DNA from: Limnobacter alexandrii
GTDB taxonomy: Bacteria > Pseudomonadota > Gammaproteobacteria > Burkholderiales > Burkholderiaceae_B
DNA: 64,000 bases
Direction: 5' to 3'
NCBI RefSeq assembly: GCF_005871185.1
Contig: NZ_SWKN01000006.1
Location: forward strand, 1,032,451 to 1,096,450
Below are positions 61,762 through 64,000 of this stretch, one piece after another. The translations under genes were made by a program, and so were the position numbers. A model generated the notes under the pieces. It ran no database searches. It saw nothing but the letters and a program-made list of their open reading frames with translations, and was not told where the DNA came from. Every line of letters begins with the position of its first letter. Position 1 is the first letter of the stretch.

Positions 61762-62907
61762 TTACCGGATTTGTGGGCGACTACCCCAGAGCAGTTTTTC
61801 CTGCATTTCGCGCGTGGTGTTGCTCGTTGATTCTTGCGATGCACCGGCACTATTGCCACTGCCAAAGAGGCCTTTTAGTTCAGTAACTTCACTTTGTGAC
61901 GATGCGCCCGCGGTGCTGCTGCCAGCTTCCCGAATGATTTCACCGGTGTAGGGGTCGATCAAAATGTTGGGGTCTTGTTTTGACGGCATTGCAGCAGGTG
62001 GTGGCGTTAAAACAATCGGATTCAATTTTTGTTTGACGGGTGTGCTGTCTGCAGCTTGATTGCTGCGCAGTTCGCTTGGCTTCGCGGCGCTAAGCCGAGC
62101 ACAACTTTGCGCCGACAAATTGTTCATCTCGGTCAACATGTTGAACACCGCATGTTCAATCACCATGCGAACGCCTTTTTGAATGGGCTCCTGCGTGCGT
62201 TCGGCAGCGTTGATGTCGACCAATCCATCACTGAACAGCCGGAAGTAACCACCATTCAATTCAGTGCCAATAATCTGTTTCTGAAGACTTTGTACATTGA
62301 TGACTTCAAGTGTTTTTGTGTTCACAACACGCAAATCTACAGCGACATTCATGACGAAATAGCGCGCTGCCGCGCCAATGAATCGGATCGATGACTCCAG
62401 GCTGCCACTGCGAATGTTGTAGTTCACCTCGGTGATGCCACCCACGATGTGATAGTCCGACCCTGGCAGCGAACCCGAAAAGATTTGCCGATGTGCTTTG
62501 CTCTCAGGATTGTCTGTGATCAGTTTGTTGTCGGCATATTTCAGTTCCATGTCGGCAATCGACGGGTCGAATCGCTCGACCATTGGTACCCCTGTTTTCG
62601 CCAATGCGGAAATGACCATCAGGGCGGCGCCCTGTGTAATGCGCTTGCCGTTGACCAGGTCTTCTTTGCCCGTGAAGTCGCTCACCCGGCCCACTGCAAA
62701 TCGTTTGGCACTGGGTCCTCGGCCACCCACCAAGGGTTTCAGGCATTCAAGCGCCGGGCTGTAGCGCGTGGTGTTTTCTACGACGCTTGCGCCGTCGAAG
62801 GGGCTGACATACTCCGCTTCACTAAAGGAGGGTAGTGTGGTACATGCACTGATCGATGCAGCCAGCACCGAGATGAATGCAAATTTTGGAAGCGGGTAGC
62901 GGGACAT
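61762..62907 (-). CDS. CsgG/HfaB family outer-membrane lipoprotein
   Basis: Protein of 381 residues. A lipoprotein signal peptide ends in SISAC (Cys at about residue 22). The next region has the CsgG-family pattern: KRFAVGRVSDFTGKE, a QGAALMVISALAKTG helix, YHIVGGITEVNYNIRSG and AVDLRVVNTKTLEV. CsgG forms a nine-fold secretion pore for curli subunits; HfaB is the longer relative that exports holdfast anchor proteins in Caulobacter. The extra C-terminal 110 residues (Ser/Pro/Gln-rich, with DPYTGEIIREAG) and the adjoining HfaA-like gene favour HfaB over CsgG. Last gene of the cluster. Confidence 0.8.
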   Translation of the reverse strand: MSRYPLPKFAFISVLAASISACTTLPSFSEAEYVSPFDGASVVENTTRYSPALECLKPLVGGRGPSAKRFAVGRVSDFTGKEDLVNGKRITQGAALMVISALAKTGVPMVERFDPSIADMELKYADNKLITDNPESKAHRQIFSGSLPGSDYHIVGGITEVNYNIRSGSLESSIRFIGAAARYFVMNVAVDLRVVNTKTLEVINVQSLQKQIIGTELNGGYFRLFSDGLVDINAAERTQEPIQKGVRMVIEHAVFNMLTEMNNLSAQSCARLSAAKPSELRSNQAADSTPVKQKLNPIVLTPPPAAMPSKQDPNILIDPYTGEIIREAGSSTAGASSQSEVTELKGLFGSGNSAGASQESTSNTTREMQEKLLWGSRPQIR

Positions 62908-62950
62908 AGTAGACCTTTGTTTATTCAGTATCGGTGAGTGACTTCAGTGC

Positions 62951-63271
62951 TCAGAAGCCGCCGTCGATGGATGCGTTTTGAGAGCCGTTGTTAATTTGGG
63001 TGGCATTAATGACCACCGTGTTGTTGTTGCCTTCCGTTTGCACATTGATCAGGTTGCCGATTGCGGTGGCGGCAAATCCCCAGCCAGGGGAGTCGACCTG
63101 GGTGCGATTGAAGTTGGCGTCGCGGCGGGTGCCAGCGGGTGAGTCAATGTCGGTGACGCTGCGCATGCCGAAAGGCGTTTCGAATGAGCTGACATTGCCT
63201 TCAAAGGTTTGTGCGTGTGCGCTGCCAAGGCCCAGGGCTAAAGTGGCAATACAAAGCTTGAGTAATTTCAT
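62951..63271 (-). CDS. HfaA-like holdfast anchor / curlin-like protein
   Basis: Exported protein of 106 residues: a signal peptide (MKLLKLCIATLALGLGSAHA) followed by an N-terminal part with FETPFGMRS and a C-terminal Asn/Gln-rich part (ATAIGNLINV, then EGNNNTVVINATQINNG, residues about 68-96) that resembles amyloid-type curlin strands and, from memory, Caulobacter HfaA. No cysteine in the mature chain. It should be secreted by the CsgG-like pore whose gene starts 43 bases downstream. ATG 63271 has AAGGAAA upstream. Confidence 0.7.
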   Translation of the reverse strand: MKLLKLCIATLALGLGSAHAQTFEGNVSSFETPFGMRSVTDIDSPAGTRRDANFNRTQVDSPGWGFAATAIGNLINVQTEGNNNTVVINATQINNGSQNASIDGGF

Positions 63272-63369
63272 TCGATGGTTTCCTTGATCTTTCTGGATGG
63301 GACTTGTGGGGTGAGTTTGCCCCAAGCGACCTTTGGCTGTAGGTTGTCGCTTGGGGCTGGAAAGTTCAA

Positions 63370-63957
63370 TTAAGGGCGCACGCCGCCAATGGAAATGTTG
63401 TTGCCCACTGCTGTTGCAGAGGCGGTCAGGCGGGTAGGGTCCCAGCTATATTCGGCCAAAGCCACGTTGTCGCTGACGTTGCACTGGGCCACCGACAACT
63501 CAGCCAGGCTGGTGTTGTCCAGATTCAGGCTGAAGTTATTGCCAATAGAAACAGCCTCGATGAGTACTTCGCCGGTTTTGGAGGTGCTGCGTTGTGACAA
63601 GTTGACAGAGGCCAGCTGGTCGCCATAGTTGCTTTGGGAAATGTGGCGAACAGGCGCTGTGGATGTGGAACTGAGTGAAATGGCAATGTTGTTGCCCACG
63701 GCCTGTGCGGAGCCGGTGATGTTGCCATTGTCGCGCATGACCACATTTTTCAGGTCAACGATTGCTGCATTCGTACCGGTGTTGCTTTGGATAATGATGC
63801 CGTTGTGGTTTTCGCTCAGGTAGTAGCTGCTGTCGAATTCAATGTTGGCGTCGACTTCAACTTGACAGTCGTTGCCTTGACAGGTGGCAGAGGCTACCGA
63901 GTGCATGGACAGCAAGGCGGCAAGAATGGATAAGGATTTGAGTGATTGCTTCAACAT
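63370..63957 (-). CDS. Repeat-containing exported protein, HfaD-like
   Basis: Exported protein of 195 residues with a signal peptide (MLKQSLKSLSILAALLSM, cut near residue 24). The mature chain contains three repeats of about 50 residues. Each opens with Q-[SC]-N (residues 57, 108, 158) and ends with a G-N-N strand: AVGNNIAISL, SIGNNFSLNL, AVGNNISIGG (G at 88, 139, 185). The closing strand resembles ATAIGNLINV of the HfaA-like protein. Position and pattern suggest the surface adhesin/anchor HfaD, though much shorter than the Caulobacter protein as I remember it. ATG 63957 has GGAG in place; the frame is open to the window edge. Confidence 0.6.
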   Translation of the reverse strand: MLKQSLKSLSILAALLSMHSVASATCQGNDCQVEVDANIEFDSSYYLSENHNGIIIQSNTGTNAAIVDLKNVVMRDNGNITGSAQAVGNNIAISLSSTSTAPVRHISQSNYGDQLASVNLSQRSTSKTGEVLIEAVSIGNNFSLNLDNTSLAELSVAQCNVSDNVALAEYSWDPTRLTASATAVGNNISIGGVRP

Positions 63958-64000
63958 GAAGAGTGCTCCGGGAATGTTGATAGGGGCTAAAGTTGACATC

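Follow-up and report, generated by a model that had tools for sequence, protein, structure and literature searches.

Caulobacter mutants without HfaA, HfaB or HfaD shed their holdfast, and HfaA forms SDS-resistant multimers in an HfaD-dependent manner. The anchor of Caulobacter and Brevundimonas is built from three kinds of proteins encoded in one operon, a CsgG-domain lipoprotein (HfaB), a small HfaA and a beta-repeat HfaD. Curli systems pair a pore of the CsgG type with small, exported proteins rich in Asn. The Caulobacter anchor proteins hold a polysaccharide, and the placement of HfaB requires HfsD (PMC6707917).

The window analysed here is the whole stretch of 64,000 nucleotides (G000:C1:1032451-1096450) from the Limnobacter genome G000 (Burkholderiaceae). 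At its end, three complete ORFs were found (63957-63370, 63271-62951 and 62907-61762), as an earlier note on this DNA had described, and they encode the same three kinds of proteins in one operon. The locus contains the following features:

61762-63957, minus strand: operon of the hfaD-like, hfaA-like and hfaB-like genes, three complete ORFs.
63370..63957, minus strand: HfaD-like gene, 195 aa, first in the operon, with a signal-like peptide recognised by eye and family links through relatives and profiles.
63373..63810, minus strand: predicted beta-repeat region, residues 50-195 of the HfaD-like protein, from an AlphaFold2 model and the QxNxG and A(V/I)GNN motifs.
62951..63271, minus strand: hfaA-like gene, 106 aa, matched by NCBIfam HfaA NF037934, with a signal-like peptide recognised by eye.
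61762..62907, minus strand: hfaB-like gene, 381 aa, encoding a CsgG-type lipoprotein (NCBIfam HfaB NF037935, Pfam CsgG, PDB 4uv2).
62104..62703, minus strand: CsgG domain, residues 69-268 of the HfaB-like protein (Pfam PF03783).
61765..62115, minus strand: C-terminal tail, residues 265-381 of the HfaB-like protein, with variable linkers and recurring segments.

The genes are separated by 98 bp (D-A) and 43 bp (A-B), and a promoter and terminator scan gave nothing above shuffled sequences. As judged by eye, a CorC-like gene and thiC are located downstream, and nadA, on the divergent strand, followed by nadC, nadB and a GGDEF-EAL gene, is located upstream, past position 64000. The earlier note had raised the possibility of further components beyond that position; the ORFs of the next 14 kb, read by eye, comprised these and other genes and none of the hfs or csg type. 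CsgE, CsgA and CsgB were likewise not recognised by eye in the 14 kb upstream or the ~6 kb downstream of the operon, nor were fap genes among the neighbours. In all 14 nearest loci (L002-L015), nadA was on the opposite strand immediately upstream of the operon, and in genome G027 (genus g13) the operon was also flanked by thiC and nadA. In G027, hfaDAB is immediately preceded by a diguanylate cyclase gene of the same orientation (L129 14330-15337), a hint that c-di-GMP may control the operon.

The 381-aa protein is, by its profile and structure matches, a CsgG-fold lipoprotein nearest to HfaB. It carries a lipobox-like ISAC at residues 19-22, recognised by eye, and its CsgG domain scored 65.7 bits (cut-off 20.8), and a PDB search matched CsgG 4uv2 (E 4.3e-8). 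The HfaB model gave E 4.4e-84 and 281.8 bits, below the equivalog cut-off of 300, and the CsgG model PRK15184 gave only 35.2 bits. All 16 genomes of the genus scored below 300 bits, with a top score of 297.5. The long C-terminal extension that had been noted is a tail of ~115 residues after the CsgG domain, and in nine Limnobacter-group tails segments resembling IDPxTGEI, LxGLFG and MQEKLLWGxRPxI recurred between variable linkers, with the tail of L012 lacking the LFG form and having its last segment in variant forms.

The 106-aa protein is, on its profile match, a small HfaA relative (E 7.6e-12, 45.7 bits), with the equivalog cut-off of 50 not reached. These scores agree with the HfaA-like and HfaB-like identities given in the earlier note, and the third protein was linked to HfaD through its relatives. 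The description of the two small proteins as exported and Asn/Gln-rich held in part: both have signal-like peptides by eye and the A-like protein is Asn-rich (12 of 106 residues), but its Gln content is only mild (5 of 106).

The identity of the D protein was supported by family members and profiles rather than by a direct model match, as the window's own protein had no match to NCBIfam HfaD NF037936 (cut-off 100 bits) or to any other family. The same model matched 4 of the 12 members of the D alignment (best E 3.4e-8). An hhalign comparison of 16 Limnobacter-group D proteins with 51 alphaproteobacterial HfaD ORFs gave E 3.6e-7 and a probability of 92.9 in several repeat registers, for a single target and repetitive proteins. 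We then found that a profile built only from Limnobacter D proteins had 39 matches at E<=0.01 among 4466 ORFs, mostly from hfa loci, 18 in Limnobacter-group loci and 21 outside. Seven of these 21 were ORFs in the HfaD position adjoining hfaB, with the lowest E-values in L152/L155 (5.8e-19; an A-B-D operon), L144 (5.6e-13) and L149 (2.5e-10). The other 14 were hfaA ORFs (E 8.6e-6 to 4.3e-3), which indicated that part of the signal comes from short motifs common to HfaA and HfaD. The profile missed the majority of the alphaproteobacterial HfaD ORFs searched, including most of those from Brevundimonas, and in the reverse search the alphaproteobacterial HfaD profile matched only one Limnobacter D protein (L012, 4.2e-9). 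The D protein is thus likely kin to HfaD, although D and A have motifs in common. The Limnobacter-only profile missed the D protein of G027 and matched the hfaA ORF there weakly (E 0.0015); this D protein, which had no NCBIfam family, was assigned by position, length, repeats and 28% identity.

An AlphaFold2 model of the D protein (mean pLDDT 72.8, pTM 0.66, with blocks of 78-91 over residues 51-190) contained a strand pattern that recurs three times, and residues 50-195 were read as a predicted three-coil beta solenoid. Foldseek found a single PDB match below E 0.001, FapC 9u4u (E 2.6e-4, prob 0.99), but with a TM of 0.25 and an rmsd of 11.0, and the VIA Z scores were 4.7 to FapC and 4.8 to the CsgA fibril. 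The likeness to FapC goes together with a different exporter, which has the CsgG fold in Limnobacter. When the D alignment was searched against PDB sequences, the single match was a weak one to lysostaphin (E 0.013). The HfaD model of Brevundimonas alba was also all-beta (pLDDT 87.6) and matched no PDB entry significantly (best E 0.014, prob 0.04), so the FapC likeness was not confirmed by the longer relative.

A divergent curli operon, which would explain the CsgG domain, the small Asn-rich partners and the Z score to the CsgA fibril, is very improbable. CsgF was found in none of 17 genomes and was present in both of two curli-bearing control relatives with CsgG-level matches, and HfaB was split with a support of 100/100 from eight CsgG-type proteins of the family. 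Moreover, A matched HfaA, relatives of D matched HfaD, and a Pfam scan of A and D gave no match above cut-offs and reported no curlin repeat. These results support the earlier argument against curli.

Comparisons with alphaproteobacterial loci showed that the Limnobacter operon differs from the described anchor in several respects. The Brevundimonas loci that were read have the order A-B-D, whereas all 16 genomes of the genus retain the order D-A-B, already read from the window, as does G027 judging by position. HfaD of Caulobacter and Brevundimonas has at least 412 aa, compared with 195 aa in the HfaD-like protein. The order D-A-B is not unique to Limnobacter, as a second cluster in G1090 (L162 4188-7577, family code f252) has the order D-A-B(-B') and a short HfaD of 230 aa (NCBIfam HfaD 4.2e-8). 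However, it contains two adjacent HfaB paralogues, the same genome carries a separate canonical A-B-D locus, and its HfaBs fall within the Caulobacterales group rather than with Limnobacter. Another f252 genome nested with a Caulobacteraceae row in the HfaB tree.

To describe the distribution of the operon, we searched partly overlapping samples with the HfaB model. Among 100 relatives, 34 genomes matched at E <= 0.001. Half of these matches were strong, namely those of all 16 genomes of the genus and of G027 (1.6e-71); the remaining 17 were weak (best 2.3e-15), as would be expected for CsgG. In the family, 19 of 268 genomes matched at E <= 1e-30: the 16 Limnobacter genomes, G027 and two g14 genomes. 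Only 2 of 399 genomes in the order sample matched at E <= 1e-30, both Limnobacter and one of them the window's own, which agrees with the earlier statement that such an anchor is unusual in this lineage. The window's own genome was the single match among 369 in the class sample at E <= 1e-25, and it was included in the 18 matches among 398 in the phylum sample at the same threshold. HfaB sequences of L020 (labelled Chrysosporum, a cyanobacterial record) and L061 (a Bordetella MAG) nested among Caulobacteraceae rows; they probably represent contamination or mis-binning, judging from their placement, and were excluded from the host count.

The 14 nearest loci, L002-L015, which overlap genomes G001-G015, comprised nine labelled Limnobacter and five MAGs whose labels go no further than Burkholderiales or Gammaproteobacteria. 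HfaB of the window was 86-90% identical to four Limnobacter-labelled records and 51-74% identical to five more. Against eight Limnobacter-group loci, dN/dS of the three operon genes was ~0.04-0.16 in 23 of 24 comparisons (dS was saturated in the remaining one), which indicates that all three genes are maintained under purifying selection. Among the matches listed from the open-licence literature, there was no report of hfa genes in Limnobacter. A study of soil genomes already lists gene products named HfaA and 'CsgG/HfaB' among the adhesion genes (PMC10128055), and automatic annotation may well give such names in Limnobacter too.

To better understand the origin of the operon, we compared three midpoint-rooted HfaB trees. 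The first contained 49 chosen rows; the second omitted L154, L155, one of two L162 and L129 (G027); and the third had two g14 rows added and omitted L154, one L162, L006, L009, L025, L020, L061, L039, L101, L103 and L107. Limnobacter HfaB formed one clade in all three, with a support of 99/97 (with G027), 100/99 (without G027) and 100/98 (with G027). This clade was sister to a Caulobacterales group with a support of 95/75, 89/65 and 95/82, the value of 89/65 coming from the tree with four rows removed, which carried a long-branch warning. The branches below Limnobacter and Caulobacterales were occupied by genomes outside the window's class, except for the two g14 genomes. The position of Limnobacter HfaB beside Caulobacterales HfaB suggests, as the simplest reading, an old horizontal transfer into the Limnobacter ancestor.

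The two g14 genomes, which belong to the same family, carry an HfaB-type locus of another kind (L211 8028-14190 in G1232 and L212 4955-11122 in G1231). It encodes a 475-aa HfaB-like protein, whose tail resembles OmpA by eye, a 225-aa exported protein and a ~1280-aa exported repeat protein, with further such ORFs in L212, and none of its products matched the HfaA or HfaD profile. The g14 HfaB-like proteins grouped with f253 (100/99), and a joint clade with Limnobacter was rejected (AU p 2e-5), which suggests a separate arrival of this locus and thus two arrivals in the family. In L157 5576-9982 (G1028), an HfaB-like gene is followed by a gene for a 1029-aa exported protein; this looks like the same giant-partner type, and the HfaBs group with a support of 100/99.

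Taken as a whole, the operon is best explained as a divergent HfaABD-type outer-membrane anchor. Limnobacter would have gained it in an old transfer from a donor akin to the HfaB lineages of Alphaproteobacteria and retained it across the genus; we assign this reading a probability of about 0.7. It is regarded as a divergent variant because neither equivalog cut-off was reached and the window's D protein had no direct HfaD match. The dependence of HfaB placement on HfsD in Caulobacter counts against this reading, as the search of the window's genome turned up no exporter of HfsD size. Also weighing against it, the matches listed from the open-licence literature included no data on adhesion or amyloids in Limnobacter.

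The earlier note had compared the cluster with the Caulobacter holdfast anchor and raised a distinct permanent-adhesion system; the searches did not support membership of a holdfast system like that of Caulobacter. The HfsH model had no match in the window's genome, although the two Brevundimonas controls scored 169.5 and 150.9 bits (both under the 400-bit cut-off), and the surroundings of the operon, read by eye, showed no hfs cluster. Among the 16 Limnobacter genomes, 15 had no HfsH match and G011 had a partial match of 23 bits. The PF01522 deacetylase was searched in six of the 16, with no match in G000, G008, G010, G012 and G014 and one weak match in G004 (27 bits); G027 had four. The sole Poly_export protein of the window's genome has 799 aa and is located in a large exopolysaccharide cluster, with neighbours that we take to be YjbFGH-like. 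On these searches for HfsH, PF01522 and Poly_export, a complete holdfast system with its hfs genes elsewhere in the genome is unlikely, even with the anchor genes present and with hfa, hfsD and hfsH far apart also in Brevundimonas sp. G8 (G101). Such a system could draw on the exporters of 279-298 aa carried by 5 of the 16 genomes, which are near the 256 aa of Brevundimonas HfsD, and the one inspected, in G010, sits in a Wzy-like cluster.

Because key glue-making genes are apparently absent, the anchor probably holds something else, and the tethered polymer would probably not be the deacetylated holdfast of Caulobacter; the likeliest candidates are cellulose and an exopolysaccharide specific to the strain. 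All 14 Limnobacter genomes searched, the whole set of the genus except its two least complete members, had a BcsA cellulose synthase scoring above the cut-off. In the window's genome, the cellulose operon had BcsG and BcsQ above their cut-offs and a BcsC match below its own. BcsG adds phosphoethanolamine, and such cellulose works together with curli in E. coli. We consider it a tentative possibility that an amyloid-like patch of HfaB, HfaD and HfaA fixes cellulose, perhaps phosphoethanolamine-modified in view of bcsG, to the outer membrane, as a counterpart of the E. coli curli-cellulose matrix assembled independently from holdfast-anchor parts. Cellulose genes have been reported in L. alexandrii LZ-4, and the authors of that study suggest that its EPS is mainly cellulose (PMC12628687). 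The co-occurrence of cellulose with the operon across the genus fits this proposal, as weak evidence from inside one genus, and G027, which has the operon and no BcsA above the cut-off, speaks against a strict link.

The retention of the operon in G027 would fit a stand-alone protein adhesin or small functional amyloid, in which HfaB would secrete HfaD and HfaA to stick to surfaces without any polysaccharide. The operon is constant while the types of polysaccharide exporters vary between Limnobacter genomes, and the only PDB match of the D model below E 0.001 is FapC. This alternative is nevertheless doubtful, as the related Caulobacter proteins hold a polysaccharide, and a D repeat of ~145 residues with an HfaA of 106 aa would be small for an adhesin that acts alone.

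For the preferred reading, a divergent anchor, we propose a mechanism transferred by homology from the roles of HfaA, HfaB and HfaD in Caulobacter. HfaB, a lipoprotein predicted to form a CsgG-like oligomeric pore, would export HfaD and HfaA. HfaD, as a short beta-repeat domain, may stabilise HfaA, and the two would assemble into a small patch of amyloid-like character on the outer membrane, to which it would be attached. This patch would tether an extracellular polymer and thereby provide firm attachment.

An anchor found with no detected HfsH and no HfsD-sized exporter makes Limnobacter a natural case for asking what HfaABD does alone, what kind of polymer it binds and whether HfaB still reaches its place when HfsD is absent. 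The results also suggest that the HfaABD module has moved between bacterial classes.
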